Assembly (NCBI RefSeq): GCF_023168145.1
Contig: NZ_BQYK01000004.1
Coordinates: forward strand, 297,723-361,722
Source: Sporosarcina sp. NCCP-2222
GTDB taxonomy: Bacteria; Bacillota; Bacilli; Bacillales_A; Planococcaceae
Direction of reading: 5' to 3'
DNA length: 64,000 nt
This document shows, one piece after another, positions 24,994 to 33,665 of the stretch. Numbering within the stretch: the first letter of the stretch is position 1; each line of letters opens with the position of its first letter. The position numbers and the translations under genes were made by a program. The notes beneath the pieces are model-generated. The model did not search any database. It was given only the letters and a program-made list of their open reading frames with translations, and was not told where the DNA came from.

Positions 24994-25018
24994 TAGCATC
25001 TTATACAATTAATTCGGT

Positions 25019-25396
25019 CTAAAAACTTTGTCCCACAATTAATTTCCACTTATTTTTTTCCTTCTTAACAGGAAATTTCAACTCTAGTTCCCCATCAACA
25101 TCTACCACTGAAATTGTTGCTTCAAATTCAGTTGGACTTATGGCTGAAATTCCAATAATTCGTGTTTCCGAGATTTCAGAATTAATATCCAGGTATTCTT
25201 TCATCTGTTCTTTTTTGTCAGGGAACCTTATGTCATCCGACAGTTTAACTAAGGTTGACAAATCATTATTTTCCAAGGCTTTCAGGTAATTTTGTAATAG
25301 TTTCTCCACCTCCATTTCTGGAGTAAATGTTGCTTTCGTTGAACAGCCGATTAGGAGTAATAGAAGTAGTAATCCTATTAAGGATTTTTTACCCAC
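25019..25396 (-). CDS. Small lipoprotein, NTF2-like/DUF4878-type
   Basis: A 125-residue lipoprotein: long Leu-rich signal with lipobox LIGC (Cys18), then EVEKLLQNYLKALENNDLSTLVKLSDD and a beta-rich half ending KWKLIVGQSF, the pattern of small DUF4878/NTF2-like secreted domains. No catalytic motif. Monocistronic, with its own terminator. Function unknown. Confidence 0.6.
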   Translation of the reverse strand: MGKKSLIGLLLLLLLIGCSTKATFTPEMEVEKLLQNYLKALENNDLSTLVKLSDDIRFPDKKEQMKEYLDINSEISETRIIGISAISPTEFEATISVVDVDGELELKFPVKKEKNKWKLIVGQSF

Positions 25397-25486
25397 TCGT
25401 TTTCACCTCTCCATCCAAAATATAATACAATTTTCTAACTATTATAATACCATAAATTTGGAATAAACCCCATGCTAGCCGTACAT

Positions 25487-25518
25487 AAAAACTCCCGACG
25501 TAATCAAAAGTCGGGAGC
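25487..25518 (-). terminator. Rho-independent terminator of VTC/DUF4956 operon
   Basis: CTCCCGACTT ... GTCGGGAG stem followed by TTTTTATG on the minus strand. Confidence 0.85.
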
Positions 25519-25524
25519 TTGGTA

Positions 25525-26196
25525 TTAAAGATACGATAATGATACTTTCAAATTAGCATTCCGCTCACGAATCGCATCGAGCAGCACTTGGTCACGCGTA
25601 TCCACTTTGCTGCGGATGGAAAATGTATAAAGGATCATTGTGCCAAGATTCGTCGTTTCCACTTGGCGCAGTTGATGGAACTCTGTCATGTCGTTCAAGA
25701 TATCCTCAAACAGCTCCTCATGATTCAGGTTCTCCGGAACGGTCACTTTCAAGATTTGCGTGTCCTTCCCTTTTCCATAATCAAACTTGAATAGCAAGTA
25801 AAAGACGAGACTTGCAAAGAAAGTAAGGACGATTGCCAGTTCGAATTGATACAAGCCGGCAGTCATACCGACGCATAATCCAAAAAATATGTATGCGATG
25901 TCTTTAGCGTTCGTGACAGCACTACGAAAACGGATTAAGGAAAAAATGGCGAATAACCCGAAGGCAACCCCTGCATTGTCACTGACGACGTTCATGACAA
26001 CTGAGACGACAACGCTCATCATGACAATTGTATGGACGAACGACTGAGAATACCGTTCTCCGTTAAATGTTGCCTTGTAAACTTGAGTGATGACCAAGCT
26101 AAGAATTGTGGCTAATACCATGGCGACAAGGCTCATCCAGATGGAATGATCGCCTGCCATTCCGTTAAATGAAAACAAGTTGTTGATCTGATTCAT
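25525..26196 (-). CDS. DUF4956 membrane protein
   Basis: A 223-residue protein with four predicted helices in the first 140 residues, including the strongly conserved FGLFAIFSLIRFRSAVTNAKDIAYIFFGLCVGMTAGLYQ signature of DUF4956, followed by a soluble ferredoxin-like C-terminal domain. The family is almost always linked to VTC polyphosphate polymerases and often to CotH kinases. GGAGGAATGG precedes the ATG at 26196, which lies inside the end of the VTC gene (32-nt overlap), so the two are translationally coupled. It may channel or regulate the polymer; this is inference. Confidence 0.85.
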   Translation of the reverse strand: MNQINNLFSFNGMAGDHSIWMSLVAMVLATILSLVITQVYKATFNGERYSQSFVHTIVMMSVVVSVVMNVVSDNAGVAFGLFAIFSLIRFRSAVTNAKDIAYIFFGLCVGMTAGLYQFELAIVLTFFASLVFYLLFKFDYGKGKDTQILKVTVPENLNHEELFEDILNDMTEFHQLRQVETTNLGTMILYTFSIRSKVDTRDQVLLDAIRERNANLKVSLSYL

Positions 26197-26953
26197 CTTC
26201 CATTCCTCCAATAGTTGTCTGTTCTTTTGTTGTTTGCGGTACTACTACCTCATGCAGCATCTCGGTACTCGTGCAAAACTTCGAAGCGCTCCGCTGCTCA
26301 CATTCGAGCCCCTGCAAAATACGCGCCAGCCAAAGCGGCACACTATGCTCCACCTTCACTTCAAGTACGACGAGATCCGGATCAATAAAATGATCGCCGT
26401 ACGGTCCATGCTCCAGGGCTAAATCCTCTTTCCGGCAACGCAAATTAAAATCGAATGTCATTCTCAAATCTGCGTTGTCAACTCCATGTAGCGCATGCCG
26501 ATCGTAACTGACGACCATTTCCGGTTCTAGATGATAGAAACGCCGGAAATAATCAATTTCCTTTAGCACTTGGCCATTCGTCGATTCATAATCGGCCGGA
26601 TCTGGGTCCTTCTCGCCCAAATAACGGTATGCTTCCTGAAGAGGCATGAGCAAGCGTCTTTTATTCACAACCTTGTTGTGCTTCTGCTTCACTTCAAAAA
26701 ACGCAGTGCTCGACAGCGTTGCGTCGTCATACACCCGCAGCCGAAGCTTTTGACGATATTTCAGCTTGTTCTTCGTCTCGTAATAAATGGAATGCTCCCG
26801 GTTGTCGAAATACAAGCTCGTCACCGTATATCGCCCGTCCGTTCCATTCTTGTCATTCCGCATACGAGGACCCATCTCCTCAATGAGCTGCTCATACTGC
26901 TTGCGGGTAATCAAATACTTCTGTTCCTTGCGGCAGAAAATCTCAATTGCCAT
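26165..26953 (-). CDS. VTC-domain polyphosphate polymerase
   Basis: A 262-residue member of the VTC/CYTH-like tunnel-fold superfamily, which builds polyphosphate from ATP. Characteristic basic and acidic tunnel residues are visible: RKEQKYLITRKQYEQL, TSLYFDN, KLRLRVY, FEVKQKHNKVVNKRR and LVVLEVKVE. No SPX domain is present, as is usual for bacterial forms. GAAGGAGGCGG precedes the ATG at 26953. It forms a two-gene operon with DUF4956; a CotH kinase gene is 1.6 kb away, an association seen in other genomes. Confidence 0.85.
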   Translation of the reverse strand: MAIEIFCRKEQKYLITRKQYEQLIEEMGPRMRNDKNGTDGRYTVTSLYFDNREHSIYYETKNKLKYRQKLRLRVYDDATLSSTAFFEVKQKHNKVVNKRRLLMPLQEAYRYLGEKDPDPADYESTNGQVLKEIDYFRRFYHLEPEMVVSYDRHALHGVDNADLRMTFDFNLRCRKEDLALEHGPYGDHFIDPDLVVLEVKVEHSVPLWLARILQGLECEQRSASKFCTSTEMLHEVVVPQTTKEQTTIGGMEDESDQQLVFI

Positions 26954-27068
26954 GGAACCGCCTCCTTCTTTCAACAACCTCTCTTTTAAGTTCTTTTATC
27001 CTAATCCTTTCAAATTGGATCTTGCTGTGAACTAGATTAGAGATTGGTGAGAAAGGTTGGGCGAAATA

Positions 27069-27095
27069 AAAAAACGATTGCTGGTGAGCAATCGC
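27069..27095 (-). terminator. Rho-independent terminator
   Basis: CGATTGCT-CACC-AGCAATCG stem and a seven-T tail on the minus strand, after the dioxygenase gene. Confidence 0.88.
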
Positions 27096-27106
27096 CTTTC
27101 CTCTAT

Positions 27107-27949
27107 TTATTTTAATCGAAGAATCATCCCTGTTCCCGATGGATCAGCTGTCACGTAATGAGAGCCTGCTTGTTTGACTTCCTTATTCAACCCACGAATT
27201 TGATTCACCGCGTCATTCAAAGTCTGGTCGTCCGGATAGATGAGCGTAAACGAATGCAAGCCCGCACTGTTTTTTGAAGGCTGCGGCGCCCCCTTGCCAT
27301 TCCACGTGTTCAGGGCGATATGATGGTGATAGTTGCCCGTCGACATGAACACGGCATTCGGGTAATGGCTGACAGTCGCGAAGCCGAGCGCCCGGTAGAA
27401 CGCTTCCGCCTCCTCTACGTCCGCAACATGCAGGTGAATATGCCCCATGACAGTTCCAGCAGGAAGCCCCTCCCAAGGACCGTCCACTTCTGCCACAATG
27501 CTTTGAGCGTCGAGTGGATCTGTCGTCATGGAGACGAGTCCGTTGCCCCATTCCCATTCTGCCGGATCCCGGTCACAATAGATTTCGATGCCATTGCCAT
27601 CCGGGTCGGATAAATAGAGAGCTTCACTCACTTTATGGTCAGACGCGCCAAGCGGGATGCCGCAGTTAGATAAATGAATCAGTACTTTGCCAAGATCTGC
27701 ACGCGTCGGTAGCAGGAGTGCAAAATGGTACAACCCCGATTTGCGGGATTCCTTCGGCTTTACGCCTTCAGGTTGCTCAATGATCAACAGCGGTGTCGTT
27801 CCATCTGCTGTGAGGATAATGCTTGTTGGCCCCTGTTCCAAGACGTTGAACCCAATGACCTCCGTATAAAACTTGAGAGAGCGTTCCAAATCCGTTACGA
27901 ATAAATGCACTTCGCCTGTATATGTGAAAGGTGATATATGAAAGTTCAT
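27107..27949 (-). CDS. catE: Catechol-2,3-dioxygenase-like VOC enzyme (CatE-like)
   Basis: A 280-residue two-domain vicinal-oxygen-chelate protein, close in length and layout to Bacillus subtilis CatE, an iron-dependent ring-cleaving catechol 2,3-dioxygenase. Domain 1 covers about 8-125 (SLKFYTEVIGFNVLEQG ... SEALYLSDPDGNGIEIYCDR) and domain 2 about 165-280 (MGHIHLHVADVEEAEAFYRALGF ... NYHHHIALNTW). His residues of the metal site are visible in HIHLHV and HHHIALN. The ATG at 27949 sits 8 nt after GGAGG. Divergent from an HxlR repressor that probably controls it. Substrate range inferred from the family. Confidence 0.82.
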   Translation of the reverse strand: MNFHISPFTYTGEVHLFVTDLERSLKFYTEVIGFNVLEQGPTSIILTADGTTPLLIIEQPEGVKPKESRKSGLYHFALLLPTRADLGKVLIHLSNCGIPLGASDHKVSEALYLSDPDGNGIEIYCDRDPAEWEWGNGLVSMTTDPLDAQSIVAEVDGPWEGLPAGTVMGHIHLHVADVEEAEAFYRALGFATVSHYPNAVFMSTGNYHHHIALNTWNGKGAPQPSKNSAGLHSFTLIYPDDQTLNDAVNQIRGLNKEVKQAGSHYVTADPSGTGMILRLK

Positions 27950-27967
27950 TGTCAATTCCTCCAGGTA

Positions 27968-27988
27968 AGTTACTTACTTTATGTAACT
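27968..27988. promoter_or_regulatory. Probable CatR/YodB-type operator
   Basis: Inverted repeat AGTTAC-N9-GTAACT in the 102-bp divergent gap between the dioxygenase and HxlR genes, 19 bp before the dioxygenase start. Its TTAC/GTAA form resembles YodB/CatR boxes of B. subtilis. Confidence 0.6.
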
Positions 27989-28051
27989 AACTTTATATGA
28001 TATACTTATTATTGTCAACAAGATAAGAACTTATAGGAAAGGAACATACCT

Positions 28052-28357
28052 ATGAATGAATTTGAATTATGCCCTCGATTCGAAAAAGCAGTCGGGCTGT
28101 TGAGCCAGCGGTGGACAGCCTTAATTTTATACCAGCTGATGGCCGGTCCCCAGCGCTTCTGTACGATGACCGAGAAACTCGGCGTAAACGGCAAAACATT
28201 AACCGAGCGATTAAAAGAATTGGAGCAGCAAGGGTTTGTCATTCGCGCAGTCTATCCGGAGACTCCGGTACGGATTGAATATTCATTAACAGAAAAAGGG
28301 ATGGCTTTGACGCCGATTATGAAGGCAATTGAAGAATGGTCGCAGCAGTGGATGTAA
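28052..28357 (+). CDS. HxlR-family redox/quinone-sensing repressor (CatR/YodB-like)
   Basis: A 101-residue winged helix-turn-helix protein with the HxlR signature (CPRFEKAVGLLSQRWTALILYQLMAGPQRF ... LTERLKELEQQGFVIRAVYPETPVRIEYSLTEKG). Cys7 corresponds to the conserved N-terminal cysteine of YodB and CatR, which is oxidised or alkylated by quinones and diamide to derepress catE. AAAGGA lies 8 nt before the ATG. Divergent placement next to a CatE-like gene supports the same circuit here. Confidence 0.87.
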   Translation: MNEFELCPRFEKAVGLLSQRWTALILYQLMAGPQRFCTMTEKLGVNGKTLTERLKELEQQGFVIRAVYPETPVRIEYSLTEKGMALTPIMKAIEEWSQQWM

Positions 28358-28374
28358 CTTTGATAATTAAACTG

Positions 28375-28414
28375 AAGTACCCGAAATGGCCGCAATCGTT
28401 TGTTTCGGGTACTT
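28375..28414 (+). terminator. Strong hairpin after HxlR gene
   Basis: Perfect 12-bp stem AAGTACCCGAAA / TTTCGGGTACTT with a 16-nt loop, 17 bp past the stop codon. No T-run follows, so it may stabilise mRNA or terminate inefficiently. Confidence 0.6.
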
Positions 28415-28469
28415 GCCCACCAGAAACTGCTCTCAGTCTGCTCATTGAAGAAATTAAAAAGACACATAA

Positions 28470-28497
28470 AAAAAAGACTCCACTAGTGAAGTCTCGT
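28470..28497 (-). terminator. Rho-independent terminator of cotH
   Basis: On the minus strand AGACTTCAC-TA-GTGGAGTCT stem followed by eight T's, 13 bp past the cotH stop. Confidence 0.85.
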
Positions 28498-28510
28498 AAG
28501 CGTGAAGCAA

Positions 28511-29590
28511 TTAAAGAAATTGCAATTCTTTTTGGATATAGGCCGATCGAGCTTCGATAAATTTTAGAATATAGTCCGGCTCTTGATCAAAGCGATTCAA
28601 GCCTCTTTTTTTATAGGGGTCGAGTTGAACATGCGGCCGAATCTGCTCATGCATCGTTTGTATTTTAGGTTTTAAATAATCTACTGTAAATTGATTCTGT
28701 AAGATATTCACCATCAAGTCCTTATATTGGGTACGAAAAGTTTTACAATCGAGGATGCGGGCTGTCAATGTATTAAAACCTTCAATACGTAAATAATCAC
28801 TTTCCATCTCTTCCCCATTCACATCCCTGCCCCATGTTGCATCGTAATCCCAAGGAATGATTTCATATTGACCCGTCTGTCTGCGCTGATACAGCGCATA
28901 GTTATGAACAAAACCATCAAAGTTTTGTGTACATACAACCCCCGCAAGCCAGCGCAAATAAGCATCGATATTCACATACTTCATGATAGTCCCTTCAAAC
29001 TCATCCCGTGGAATGGTATTGATATGAATAATCGTTTCTCGCAAACAATCCTCATCTTCCTTTGTCCCGTGTATTTGCTCATATCCTTTTAATAGCGATT
29101 TTTTTACTTGCTTATCCAGGTCACTCACTAATGAAAAATTAGCATCCCCGTCCACCGCATAAAATATTGGCCCTTCCGGCAACTTTCGATTAGCGAGAAA
29201 GTTTTCGTCCACTGATTCCAATTCCAAATAGACACCTTCGTTTTTCCCATTTAGTTTTAAGGAAACAAAACGAGCTTGAGGCGCCAAGCAGCCGATGTCA
29301 TGAAAGAAGTCGAATGATAGTTTATTTCTTAACAACGAGGGATCCTTAAATTCCGCATTCAAATGAATAACTTTTGCGTTTCGAAACTTGGGAGGGCTGT
29401 AGAAGGATACTTGATAAGATTTCTTTTTGAAATCACGGATGTGGGATCCGCGATACGCAATATCCACTTCATACTTTTTCCCATTAATCGTTAGCTTGGC
29501 AGGGACAGAATCATCTATCCAAATATCTCTCCTCAATTCCATGATGTCTAGAGGGTGAATAAATAGCTGGTATTCCTGTAACTTCTCGAT
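28511..29590 (-). CDS. cotH: Spore coat protein kinase CotH, probable AUC start codon
   Basis: An atypical protein kinase of the spore-coat CotH family; in B. subtilis it phosphorylates CotG and CotB during coat assembly. The core is clear: AYRGSHIRDFKKKSYQVSFY, HLNAEFKDPSLLRNKLSFDFF, NGKNEGVYLELESVDENFL, YVNIDAYLRWLAGVV, NFDGFVHNYALY and IIPWDYDATWGRD, whose Asp residues bind metal. The first in-frame ATG (29542) has no ribosome site and starts inside the conserved N-terminal strand; upstream codons read IEKLQEYQLFIHPLDI, matching the CotH N-terminus. AAAGGAG ends 8 nt before an ATC at 29590, itself right after a TAG. Starting there gives 359 residues, close to the usual 362. Divergent from a CotG-like gene. 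Confidence 0.85.
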   Translation of the reverse strand: MEKLQEYQLFIHPLDIMELRRDIWIDDSVPAKLTINGKKYEVDIAYRGSHIRDFKKKSYQVSFYSPPKFRNAKVIHLNAEFKDPSLLRNKLSFDFFHDIGCLAPQARFVSLKLNGKNEGVYLELESVDENFLANRKLPEGPIFYAVDGDANFSLVSDLDKQVKKSLLKGYEQIHGTKEDEDCLRETIIHINTIPRDEFEGTIMKYVNIDAYLRWLAGVVCTQNFDGFVHNYALYQRRQTGQYEIIPWDYDATWGRDVNGEEMESDYLRIEGFNTLTARILDCKTFRTQYKDLMVNILQNQFTVDYLKPKIQTMHEQIRPHVQLDPYKKRGLNRFDQEPDYILKFIEARSAYIQKELQFL

Positions 29591-29617
29591 CTACACCACT
29601 CCTTTGCTCGTTATTCC

Positions 29618-29645
29618 ATTTCTATGCTGAATTGATGATAAGGTG
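29618..29645 (-). promoter_or_regulatory. Possible sigma-K promoter of cotH
   Basis: On the minus strand CACC, 16 bp, then CATAGAAAT, close to the mother-cell sigma-K pattern (AC at -35, CATANNNTA at -10) but with the last two -10 bases differing. Placed 28 bp before the proposed start codon. Confidence 0.3.
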
Positions 29646-29764
29646 TGCACTTCACTCTGTTCCCTCCAAAAAACGAGCGTATGGTAGATAGGAGGGCGGA
29701 ATGCGTTCAAAGCTATAGTTTTTGCGTGTTTCACCTCAGCCAAGCGGGAAGGGGGTGTTGATAT

Positions 29765-30400
29765 ATGTCACTCTTTTTTGAGGAAGAAATTCGAAGAGCC
29801 ATGGGAAGAGCAAATCAACTGGGATTGAATGACTTTATGTTTCAGGATCCTACGAGTAACCGGCACCGTACAAGCAGACGACGTCGCACGTCTCGAAAAA
29901 ATCGCAGAACAAGCCGAGTTCGTCGCACATCTCGATTTGGATGCTGTGGGCAAAGAGTAAGAGCTACATCCAGGAATCAACGGCGCACAAGCAGAATGCG
30001 TGTCACTTCACGGAACCGTCGCCGCACGAGCAGAATGCGCGTCACTTCTCGGAACCGTCGCCGCACAAGCAGAATGCGCGTCACTTCTCGGAACCGCCGC
30101 CGCACAAGCAGAATGCGCGTCAATTCACGGAACCGTCGCCGCACGAGCAGGATGCGCGTCACTTCTCGAAACCGTCGCCGCACAAGCAGAATGCGCGTCA
30201 CTTCTCGAAACCGTCGCCGCACAAGCAGGATGAATGTCACATCTCGAGCAAGATGTTGCGGACAAAGAAGAAGAGTCAGAGTTACATCAAGAAGGCGTAT
30301 AACCTCTAGTAATCATCAACTTACAAACAGAAGTAATGAAAACTTCAACATACGACCTAATTGCAGAAACCGAGCCACTTGTCGCAATCGATGGTTTTAA
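29765..30400 (+). CDS. CotG-like Arg/Ser/Thr-rich repeat protein (probable spore coat, CotH substrate)
   Basis: A 211-residue extremely basic protein. Residues 73-163 are seven copies of a 13-residue repeat RRTSRMRVTSRNR, encoded by near-identical 39-bp DNA repeats; the block is flanked on both sides by a CCGQR motif (60-64 and 164-168), and the C-terminus carries two more Cys in CRNR contexts. The N-terminus (FFEEEIRRAMGRANQLG) is amphipathic. AAGGGGGTG precedes the ATG. It is divergent from cotH, exactly as cotG is from cotH in B. subtilis; CotG also is a basic, Ser-rich tandem-repeat protein phosphorylated by CotH. Sequence identity to CotG is not evident, so the assignment rests on composition and position. 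Confidence 0.7.
   Translation: MSLFFEEEIRRAMGRANQLGLNDFMFQDPTSNRHRTSRRRRTSRKNRRTSRVRRTSRFGCCGQRVRATSRNQRRTSRMRVTSRNRRRTSRMRVTSRNRRRTSRMRVTSRNRRRTSRMRVNSRNRRRTSRMRVTSRNRRRTSRMRVTSRNRRRTSRMNVTSRARCCGQRRRVRVTSRRRITSSNHQLTNRSNENFNIRPNCRNRATCRNRWF
29981..30253 (+). repeat. Seven 39-bp coding tandem repeats
   Basis: In-frame repeats of 39 bp encoding 13 residues each inside the CotG-like gene; copies differ by only a few bases, so copy number is likely to vary between strains. Confidence 0.85.
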
Positions 30401-30449
30401 TCATTATATAGTTTTAAAGCATAGCAATAATAAGTTGCTTAGCCCCCCC

Positions 30450-30501
30450 AATCCGGATATTGGACAAATGAGTGAAACATTGTCCTTTCCGGTTTTTTTG
30501 T
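30450..30501 (+). terminator. Rho-independent terminator of CotG-like gene
   Basis: CCGG-atatt-GGACAA ... TTGTCC-ttt-CCGG interrupted stem followed by seven T's, 50 bp past the stop. Confidence 0.7.
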
Positions 30502-30609
30502 GTGTTTAATCATCTCAAAGACAATATGGAAAATATAGTATATAATCATATGTAGTGATATAGGACGAAATGAATACGAAGAAAACTGCTACTATATGGA
30601 GTGAGTAGA

Positions 30610-30849
30610 TTGAATAGCCAATCGTTTTTAATCGGTTTTATTCTTGCTTATGTATGTCTCTGTATTCCATCTATGTTAGGCATAATTATTTGCTGGGCTC
30701 CAGAAGTTACGTTTTTGCAGAAAATCAAAGGGTATGTGGTTACGATGCTCCTTGATAATTTTGTGAATAAATTTTCCTTTTCTATCCTCTGGGGTATGAT
30801 TTGCAGTTTTATATTTTCACGCTACAGGCGCAATCAGTTGAGTTATTAG
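30610..30849 (+). CDS. Small membrane protein
   Basis: A 79-residue protein with two predicted helices (about 6-30 and 45-70) and a basic C-terminus SRYRRNQLSY. The TTG at 30610 is the start because GGAGTGAG lies 5-8 nt upstream. No family recognised. Monocistronic; a terminator overlaps its end. Function unknown. Confidence 0.5.
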   Translation: MNSQSFLIGFILAYVCLCIPSMLGIIICWAPEVTFLQKIKGYVVTMLLDNFVNKFSFSILWGMICSFIFSRYRRNQLSY

Positions 30850-30880
30850 AAAAAGACCGATCACGCAATCGGTCTTTTTC
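30850..30880. terminator. Bidirectional terminator
   Basis: AAAAAGACCGAT / ATCGGTCTTTTT stem between two convergent genes. Confidence 0.85.
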
Positions 30881-30884
30881 TCTT

Positions 30885-31382
30885 TTACGATTTTACTTGG
30901 AAGTACCCTCTGCAAAAAACGGAGTTCTTTGGTTTAATTGCAATCAAAACGGAATTATAAATGTCTGCAGCGGAAATGATGGCGTTGATCCAGCTAACAA
31001 ATAATAGGATGGATTTCAAATCCTCCGATACATAGAACGACAAAACGGCAGGCACGATCGTCAATCCAATAAAGGGCAAGGTCATAAATATCCAAAATCT
31101 CGGCTTGGATAGAACGGCATTGGTATGCAGCCAAAAAAATATGCCGCTAAATGTTAAGCTTATGTCCCCTTCTTTGTATACGACCAAGATGTGCAGACAT
31201 TCGTGGATGATGAAGACAAGGATGCTTATGGCAATGAGAAAGTAGATCTTCTGATGAGTGAATTGTGCTCCAAAAAAATTCGGTAATAAAAATAGGATGA
31301 CCTGAAGCAGATAGACAAACTTCATATAATGTTTTCGATACCAATCGTTTTGAATGAAAGGAGTCCATTCTGCCAAATTCAT
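30885..31382 (-). CDS. DUF3267-type putative membrane metalloprotease
   Basis: A 165-residue membrane protein with four to five predicted helices. HECLH (about residues 60-64) matches the HExxH zinc motif of DUF3267 proteins, which resemble site-2-type intramembrane proteases in miniature. A short cytoplasmic N-terminus and a basic tail flank the core. No ribosome site is obvious before the ATG, so the start is uncertain. Substrate unknown. Confidence 0.7.
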   Translation of the reverse strand: MNLAEWTPFIQNDWYRKHYMKFVYLLQVILFLLPNFFGAQFTHQKIYFLIAISILVFIIHECLHILVVYKEGDISLTFSGIFFWLHTNAVLSKPRFWIFMTLPFIGLTIVPAVLSFYVSEDLKSILLFVSWINAIISAADIYNSVLIAIKPKNSVFCRGYFQVKS

Positions 31383-31436
31383 ATGTATGTGTGGTAAGTG
31401 ACGAAACCATATGATGAAAGCAATCTTCCCCTCTCT

Positions 31437-31955
31437 TTAGTGTACAGTCGCGTTTTTCAAGTATTCCTCAATTTGCTTGGAGGAATGTAGATAATAGACT
31501 GTTTTCCCCTCGGCTGTATAACGCTCCAAGCGCTCTTTCATTTTCTTTTTCCGCCTGCTGTAGGTCGTTAGGATAAAGCGGAGAAAAGGCCAGTCAATCT
31601 TTTCTGGACAACCCTCCGTCAAATCATCGCGTGTTTTGCCATGAAATTGAATACGTCGCTTGAGGACTCTATACAGGCATACATATAGTGGAAGTTCTAA
31701 ATATATGACCGTGTCTGCATGTGGCTCACGAATAGAAAACGTGGAAGTGTAGTTTCCTTCGATGATCCACCGTTCCCTTTGGACAACTTGCTCTTGAGCT
31801 TGCGAAAATTCTGCGGCCGGAGTTTCCTTCCATCCCGGCTGCCAATAAAGACGATCCAGATGCGTCACTTCAATCCCCAACTTTTCGCTGATCCTTCTGG
31901 CAAAAGTGGATTTACCGACACCCGCTGAAACACCGATTACCATGACACGCTTCAT
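31437..31955 (-). CDS. P-loop kinase, FlaR/topology-modulation-type
   Basis: A 172-residue P-loop NTPase: GVSAGVGKSTFARRIS (Walker A), THLDRLYWQPGW and RWIIEGNYTSTF, the pattern of the adenylate-kinase-related 'DNA topology modulation protein' family, whose true substrate is unproven. The second half is very basic (RRKKKMKERLERY). GGAAGGGG lies before the ATG, which overlaps the stop of the upstream nucleotidyltransferase by 4 nt (ATGA), so the two are cotranslated. Confidence 0.8.
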   Translation of the reverse strand: MKRVMVIGVSAGVGKSTFARRISEKLGIEVTHLDRLYWQPGWKETPAAEFSQAQEQVVQRERWIIEGNYTSTFSIREPHADTVIYLELPLYVCLYRVLKRRIQFHGKTRDDLTEGCPEKIDWPFLRFILTTYSRRKKKMKERLERYTAEGKTVYYLHSSKQIEEYLKNATVH

Positions 31956-32527
31956 TTTATTTCCCCTTCCATTCGGGAAATCCATTCATGGCCTGGCGTA
32001 TGGGTTTGCAAAGCGTCATACAGCCACTTTTTATCCTGCTCTCCCAGCAAAGGGTAGGCATTTTGAAAATCCAATGTATCTTTTGGCCTTGTCCCTTTCG
32101 CTTTGTAGAGTAGCACAATTGCCGGATGTAAATAGGGCAGGCCTTCTTTTGTCTTTAGAAACAAGGAAGACGCCGGAAAGGTAATTGTCGGATCTCTGCG
32201 AAACACCCACTCTTCAGCGATAATTTCATTTAAGAGAATCTCCAGTTCAGCATTCGTATCCCTACGTACTGCATGCAATTCATGGATTGGAAGTTCGAGC
32301 TGTTCCCCCTCCCATTCTTGAAATTTTCCCTTTACCACTTTTCGGAACGACCAGTCGGCAAGTACAGTTTTCAGTGCGTGTTGATCCGACCGTAGAACTG
32401 CCACTTCGACGTCCGAATGATCTCTCGTATTTCTGCCGACAAATAGGTCAATCGCCCACCCGCCTGCAATTCCCCAAGGTCGATTGTACCTCTGGAACCA
32501 TTTTTTATTTTCTTCAATAAATTGCAC
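31952..32527 (-). CDS. Nucleotidyltransferase-fold protein (AadA/LinB-like)
   Basis: About 191 residues. GIAGGWAIDLFVGRNTRDHSDVEVAVLRSD (about 20-50) is the GG...DxE/D metal motif of the nucleotidyltransferase fold used by aminoglycoside and lincosamide adenylyltransferases and by related uncharacterised proteins. The C-terminal half (LHPAIVLLYKAKGTRPKDTLDFQNAYPLLG) matches the same 'aminoglycoside-2-adenylyltransferase-like' group. The GTG at 32527 is preferred after the AGGGGGG site; earlier TTGs lie within or before it. Resistance function is possible but not shown. Confidence 0.72.
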   Translation of the reverse strand: MQFIEENKKWFQRYNRPWGIAGGWAIDLFVGRNTRDHSDVEVAVLRSDQHALKTVLADWSFRKVVKGKFQEWEGEQLELPIHELHAVRRDTNAELEILLNEIIAEEWVFRRDPTITFPASSLFLKTKEGLPYLHPAIVLLYKAKGTRPKDTLDFQNAYPLLGEQDKKWLYDALQTHTPGHEWISRMEGEIK

Positions 32528-32693
32528 AGTCTCCCCCCTCAAACCAGCCAACTAAGGGGCGACAGCTTGCCACCCCTTTCTATCGGAATCATCATTGTAC
32601 TGAATTTTTCGTCTCTCAACAACCAGATATCATACTGTAACAGGCTTCATTACAAAAGATTTCACATCAATAGTTACAAATCAAACCGGATTC

Positions 32694-32716
32694 CACACTT
32701 CGATAAGCGTTGAAAT
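32694..32716. promoter_or_regulatory. Operator-like site upstream of DMT exporter
   Basis: ACACTTCGAT-AAGC-GTTGAA with the same spacing as the palindrome before the ArsR-type regulator at 34425-34448; a TATAAT at 32727-32732 follows, so a bound repressor would block the promoter. Confidence 0.55.
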
Positions 32717-32774
32717 AACCTAGCACTATAATATAAAAAGATGATTCATCAAAAAATTGTTGGGAGACGAACGA

Positions 32775-33665
32775 ATGAAAACAATCAAATTTACAGTGCT
32801 AACTATTTTTACAACCTTTTTAATGGGTTCTTCTTTTGCTGTCGTTAAATTAGGATTGCCTTACTCCTCACCATTGCTGCTGGCAGCACTCCGCTTTATA
32901 CTGGCCGGGATCCTCATGGGTGCAATAGTGATAAAGTTGAAGAGGCCCCATCCAACATCCGGAATAAACTGGCTCAAATTGTTCTGTATTGGTTCACTTC
33001 AAACAGCAGGCGTAATGGGATGCATCTTCCTAAGTTTGCGCACCATCTCAGCAAGTGAATCTTCCATTCTTACATTCACCAATCCATTACTTGTTGTAGT
33101 GTTCGGCACCCTATTTTTTAAAACGCGCTACAAATTTTATCAGTGGATTGGCGTTCTTCTAGGGATGATAGGTGTCATCATCACCATGGGAGCCCAAATT
33201 AAATTTGAGGTTGGAATAGTCTTCGGTTTTCTTTCAGCTGTATTTTGGGCATTAGCGACATTATTAGTGAAACAGTGGGGTGACGTTTTCGATACGTGGG
33301 TCTTATCCGCTTATCAAATGCTGTTCGGTGGTGTGCTGCTTTTAGTTGGCAGTTTTCTATTTGAGCAACCATTTTTCCATTTGAATGCTCATTCCATCCT
33401 CCTCTTGTTATGGTTAAGTATCATGTCATCTATCTTGCAATTTGCTGTGTGGTATTATTTGTTGTCAACGAGTGATCCCGGAAAAACAAGCGCCTACTTG
33501 TTTCTAGCTCCTTTCTTCGGCGTCATATCCGGTTGGTTTTTACTGGGTGAACGTTTATACCCTTCACTCCTAGCGGGTGGCCTGTTTATCATAGTCGGCA
33601 TTTATCTTGTCAATCGAACTTTCCAGACGAAACGTGAATATCAAGGGATAGTAAATAAAAGTTAA
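32775..33665 (+). CDS. EamA/DMT-superfamily exporter
   Basis: A 296-residue ten-helix membrane protein with two EamA repeats (SSFAVVKLGLPYSSPLLLAALRFILAG and LSAVFWALATLLVKQWGDVFDTWVLSAYQMLFGG) typical of RhaT/YdcZ-like metabolite exporters. GGGAG lies before the ATG at 32775. It shares an operator-like sequence with the convergent ArsR-type regulator gene directly downstream, which likely represses it. Substrate unknown. Confidence 0.87.
   Translation: MKTIKFTVLTIFTTFLMGSSFAVVKLGLPYSSPLLLAALRFILAGILMGAIVIKLKRPHPTSGINWLKLFCIGSLQTAGVMGCIFLSLRTISASESSILTFTNPLLVVVFGTLFFKTRYKFYQWIGVLLGMIGVIITMGAQIKFEVGIVFGFLSAVFWALATLLVKQWGDVFDTWVLSAYQMLFGGVLLLVGSFLFEQPFFHLNAHSILLLLWLSIMSSILQFAVWYYLLSTSDPGKTSAYLFLAPFFGVISGWFLLGERLYPSLLAGGLFIIVGIYLVNRTFQTKREYQGIVNKS

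Follow-up and report, generated by a model that had tools for sequence, protein, structure and literature searches.

A putative CotG-CotH module in Sporosarcina with a conserved N-terminal cap and a divergent repeat array

Main finding

The repeat protein encoded divergently from cotH in the window (the whole 64,000-nucleotide stretch of Sporosarcina DNA that was analysed) is, by the homology of its N-terminus, the CotG of a Sporosarcina species, and its tandem array alone sets it apart. The original prediction had seen in it a Ser/Thr-rich, CotG-type candidate substrate lying beside CotH, and this part stands. It had also taken the protein to be unlike CotG and independently evolved, a view contradicted by the CotG/ExsB cap, by the cotG-cotH layout and by the presence of TSR repeats in many Bacillaceae CotG-like genes. 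We consider it very likely that the two genes form a module in which CotG is multiply phosphorylated by the adjacent CotH, its ends binding the coat and its disordered array serving as a charged spacer. The locus is a neat and essentially expected example of the known cotG-cotH pair. Its new elements are modest: apparent cap homology across species whose CotG-like proteins were called non-homologous, a cotH promoter that probably differs from that of B. subtilis, and a genome that apparently holds the CotG-CotH pair but no CotB.

The kinase gene and its start

The cotH gene, encoding an atypical Ser/Thr kinase, occupies 28511..29542 on the minus strand (343 aa counted from the first in-frame ATG). 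Its coordinates and its match to PF08757 (E=1.4e-88, profile search) agree with the original description of a CotH kinase gene divergent from a gene for a 211-residue Arg/Ser/Thr-rich protein. Over residues 1-341 it matches the solved structures 5JD9/5JDA ("Spore coat protein H") at full length (E=1.6e-132). The motifs NFDGFVHNY (NxDGFxHNY) and PWDYDATWGRD are present and largely invariant among relatives, with the catalytic Asp and metal-binding motifs in place (N207, D209 and H213; P230, W231, D232, Y233 and D234). On these motifs the kinase is intact, and it is the single CotH of the window genome (4.02 Mb, 99.95% complete).

Translation of cotH probably starts at about 29590, at an ATC upstream of the listed ATG, which would give a protein of 359 aa. 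This ATC follows an in-frame TAG and opens a probable N-terminal extension, IEKLQEYQLFIHPLDI (29543..29590, minus strand), whose YQLFIHP-like stretch is kept in relatives, and 8 nt ahead of it the sequence holds a ribosome-binding site, AAAGGAG (29599..29605, minus strand). No ribosome-binding site precedes the first in-frame ATG (29542), and a start there would lose the conserved YQLFIHP. The same ATC/TAG arrangement is present in S. cyprini. A disrupted cotH was also observed elsewhere, beside an intact 227-aa cotG, with another intact pair in the same genome (L228, G563:C25; L190, S. limicola).

Anatomy of the repeat protein

On the plus strand, cotG (29765..30400) encodes a modular, positively supercharged protein of 211 aa that is predicted to be a coat protein. 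It contains 73 Arg, 1 Lys, 25 Ser, 23 Thr and 6 Cys, including 19 TSR triplets, and has a pI of 12 and a net charge of about +68. The seven 13-residue repeats between two CCGQR motifs that were originally described are found as such: the units, RRTSRMRVTSRNR, fill residues 73-163 as judged by eye (29981..30253, plus strand), the first motif lies at residues 60-64 (29942..29956, plus strand; kept in S. cyprini and S. luteola) and the second, read directly from the sequence, at residues 164-168 (30254..30268, plus strand). TRF reports the array at 29984-30246 with a 39-bp period, 6.7 copies and 91% matches; by eye, five units are perfect, one carries a T->N change and one reads MNVTSRAR. The protein ends in a conserved C-terminus, CRNRATCRNRWF (30362..30397, plus strand), which is identical or near-identical in seven Sporosarcina-type orthologues. 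In S. cyprini the orthologue has five units versus seven in the window gene, so that the number of units changes fast while the ends of the protein stay fixed.

The structure model places a helix at residues 3-18 of the cap, followed by GLNDFMFQDP, with a pLDDT of 70-80 in the cap. From residue 33 on pLDDT is below 50, and the array is predicted to be disordered. A Pfam Lysostaphin_N match on the array (6e-8, 33 bits versus a cut-off of 60) was rejected as a low-complexity repeat match, and no Rfam families were found within positions 25000-33000 of the window.

The N-terminal cap and its pairing with cotH

The informative part of the repeat protein is its first ~30 residues, which were passed over in the original prediction. 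Residues 6-29 (29780..29851, plus strand), marked as a cap by NF047410, by the cap profile of relatives and by the structure model, match positions 3-26 of the 26 in NF047410, the NCBIfam model of the CotG/ExsB N-terminal domain, at E=8.2e-4. The score of 19.3 bits (22.7 by frame) is below the curated 28-bit cut-off, and the cap genes of sister species score above it. With a cap profile built from 22 relatives, the window gene and its closest sister being left out, the window gene scores 56 bits, and among the 3,527 ORFs of the first loci good scores were obtained for cotH-adjacent genes only. With this profile, CotG is recovered at 9e-8 to 6e-6 in the B. subtilis-like genomes L033-L035 and at about 1e-7 to 2e-4 in the B. 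subtilis group.

For a broader survey, 80 named loci were picked by CotH alone (59-93% identical to the window CotH, the nearest being S. cyprini at 93% and S. luteola at 88%). A cap gene divergent from cotH was found at E<=0.002 in every one, including those of Bacillus spizizenii, B. mojavensis, B. tequilensis and B. velezensis. Beyond these, cap-profile matches at E<0.1 are confined to second cap genes at the same loci. TSR-type units are common among the 80, for example in Neobacillus and Psychrobacillus, and beneath the one cap the repeats form a graded series of TSR, RRTSRRS and SHKKS. The shared cap argues for common descent of CotG-like proteins with turnover of the array; repeat turnover among them has already been published (PMC9765600). 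Because what is shared is this short cap, it is likely to be a fixed contact, with CotH, CotB or CotE, that leaves the array free to change.

Two further observations concern variation at these loci. A second cap gene lies near the first, as a duplication of the substrate gene, in L064 (3404-4039), L141 (5444-5656), L179 (5391-6053) and L201 (5086-6189). In L061 (G328) the cotH-divergent repeat gene is acidic (GDDSGDDSGNES), not basic, beneath a cap-like N-terminus.

Within the genus of the window, the cap (NF047410, E up to 1e-3) was found in 26 of 61 genomes, and CotH-A, the window type of kinase (63-100% identical), in the same 26; the remaining 35 have neither. This corresponds to p=8e-18 on the assumption of independent genomes, an assumption that does not hold within a single genus. 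Cap and cotH are separated by 228-1535 bp in these genomes. By a strict filter, a repeat-type ORF stands upstream of 45 of 77 short CotH genes versus none of 16 of the long secreted type (p=8e-6). Absence of co-occurrence with cotH in relatives had been named at the outset as a finding that would count against the substrate proposal; the pairing was instead seen in 80/80 named loci, and in 26/26 versus 0/35 genus genomes.

Candidate promoters

A candidate sigmaK-type cotH promoter, AC-N16-CATA, lies at 29616..29646 (minus strand) and was picked out by enrichment of the pattern at this place across loci. Outside the B. subtilis group, AC-N15..17-CATA-N3..4-TA occurs close upstream of cotH in 36 of 71 loci versus 0.5 in shuffles, and the looser AC-N15..17-CATA, the form present in the window, in 40 of 71 versus 2.9. 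We take these elements to be probable sigmaK sites on the basis of the sigmaK consensus. For cotG, a weak candidate -10 element, CGTAnnnTA (29678..29686, plus strand), is kept in seven Sporosarcina loci; the -35 is weak or absent, making the cotG promoter uncertain.

The longer pattern was found near cotH in none of the 10 B. subtilis-group loci, in agreement with the published promoter of B. subtilis cotH, which is distal and lies beyond cotG, so that cotG falls inside the cotH leader (PMC4130616). From this distribution of promoter-like elements, nesting of cotG in the cotH leader seems not to be a general rule.

CotB, CotH-B and neighboring genes

CotB, an interaction partner of CotG in B. 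subtilis, was not found in the window genome with two queries (74 aa, then 160 aa), and no cotB adjoining cotH, as in the B. subtilis cotB-cotH-cotG cluster, was seen there; CotE is present. The 160-aa query gave matches in 8 of 31 genus genomes. In some sister species there is a further kinase, CotH-B (50-55% identical), and CotB-family genes lie at its locus. Among the sampled genus genomes, CotB accompanies CotH-B in 5/5, and three others have CotB without CotH-B. Near CotH-B, a capless Thr-rich repeat ORF with TTGHK or STGHVSKGDASKGHT units was observed (L067 6177-6611, L068 4395-4853, L221 6963-7394, L225 4327-4842), making it a candidate for another kinase substrate without the CotG cap.

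We entertain tentatively, and on balance doubt, a wider scenario in which whole CotG-like arrays are exchanged while the docking cap is conserved. The B. subtilis trio would, in Sporosarcina, have been split into two kinase-substrate modules: CotH-A with CotG, and CotH-B with CotB and a capless, unrelated Thr-rich repeat protein. Of these, only CotH-A/CotG would have been kept in the window genome, which would make CotG the primary substrate and CotB dispensable.

About 1.5 kb from cotH, at 25525-26977 of the window (minus strand), are genes for a VTC-domain protein and a DUF4956 protein, a pair that S. cyprini and S. luteola also retain. Elsewhere these two genes sit next to a long secreted-type CotH; the window genome has no long CotH, and the pair therefore looks orphaned there.

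Proposed mechanism

In the mechanism that we propose, CotH would be produced by the mother cell at a late stage of sporulation and would phosphorylate the neighboring CotG at Ser/Thr of the TSR repeats. The added phosphate would partly neutralize an extremely basic, disordered chain, and because of this partial neutralization CotG would stay soluble and assemble into the coat. The N-terminal helix of the cap and the C-terminal RNRATCRNRWF would act as fixed binding ends, with the array as a charged spacer of variable length between them.

According to work in B. subtilis, the repeats of both CotG and CotB are phosphorylated by CotH. CotG that lacks phosphate forms aggregates and interferes with assembly of the coat, and its repeats serve as a spacer separating N- and C-termini through which it binds other proteins of the coat (PMC7821199, PMC9765600, PMC4130616). 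ExsB of B. anthracis is phosphorylated on many Thr (PMC7821199). It is from this work on CotG, CotH and ExsB that we infer the phosphorylation, coat location, spacer role and timing of the Sporosarcina protein. With an intact kinase, 19 TSR triplets, a helical cap, a disordered remainder and CotE, the anatomy fits the published mechanism. In B. subtilis, loss of cotG relieves part of a cotH phenotype. A charge-balance idea was also considered: across loci, net charge follows S/T counts (r=0.85), the densities do not correlate (rho=0.09, p=0.42), and we make no claim of charge balance.

Alternative explanations

The character of the repeat ORF goes beyond chance: in the 64-kb window a filter for repeats, basic character and S+T content is passed by this ORF and by just one other, which reads the same array in a different frame. 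Since the period is a multiple of three, further frames of the array are open too, and on this ground the repeat ORF might be read as no gene, merely an accidental reading frame within a 39-bp DNA repeat. The probability of this is vanishingly small, the idea being already refuted by conservation of the cap in 80 loci and by dN/dS: values of 0.11 versus S. cyprini (dN 0.037, dS 0.32) and 0.07 versus S. luteola (dN 0.046, dS 0.70) support the annotated frame and a real protein under purifying selection. Cap and C-terminus, both conserved, lie outside the repeat, cotG has a good ribosome-binding site, and 69 of 87 codon differences in pairwise comparison of the seven units are synonymous. A real protein might nonetheless have evolved independently and been captured as a new CotH substrate, with no descent from CotG. 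Its repeat unit does not resemble the Lys-rich SHKKSRSYKK units found in B. subtilis CotG, and most CotG-like proteins have been described as not homologous to CotG (PMC9765600). This origin is largely refuted by the cap, which ties the window protein to CotG and is kept in all 80 loci with no competing matches beyond the extra cap genes there. The same divergent position beside cotH and the graded repeats beneath one cap weigh in the same direction, and we judge independent origin most unlikely.

Only slightly less improbable, in our estimation, is a reading in which the repeat protein belongs to the coat yet serves CotH as a poor or secondary substrate, with the array acting chiefly as a charged spacer and crosslinker by way of Arg and the Cys pairs. 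Those pairs, which flank the array, are kept among the closest orthologues, charge and S/T densities are uncorrelated across loci, and in B. subtilis, function is kept when the repeats are swapped for differently charged ones (PMC9765600). Set against this are the strict pairing with the kinase, the retention of TSR triplets in the array, purifying selection, and the fact that CotG and ExsB are known phosphoproteins. We accordingly retain phosphorylation of CotG by the adjacent CotH as the preferred reading.

Comparison with known systems

Among the papers searched, none joins Sporosarcina, spore coat and CotG. The picture of CotG-like proteins arising from unrelated minigenes in different bacilli is corrected by the shared cap. 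A Sporosarcina strain that carries a single CotH and a single CotG, and in which CotB is not detected, would offer a simpler setting than B. subtilis for probing the role of coat phosphorylation.

The window CotG resembles that of B. subtilis in its N-terminal cap, its position divergent from cotH, its central basic, S/T-rich tandem array and its W/F-containing C-terminus. It differs in having Arg/TSR-based 13-residue units where B. subtilis CotG has Lys/His/Ser units of 6-7 residues, and in the Cys pairs around the array; the cotH promoter apparently lies between the two genes, whereas that of B. subtilis lies beyond cotG. With ExsB, the CotG-like protein of the B. cereus group, the window CotG shares two features, the NF047410 cap model and Thr in the repeats; ExsB holds the exosporium to the coat, a role not known for the window CotG. 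The window CotH is like 5JD9/5JDA in its full length and conserved catalytic and metal-binding motifs, and differs in its probable ATC start, in being the only CotH of its genome and in having no detected CotB substrate. The CotG-like modular proteins of spore-forming bacilli (Saggese 2016, cited by PMC9765600 and PMC7821199) are described there as not homologous to CotG, and they share with the window CotG their chromosomal position, modular layout, tandem repeats and positive charge.
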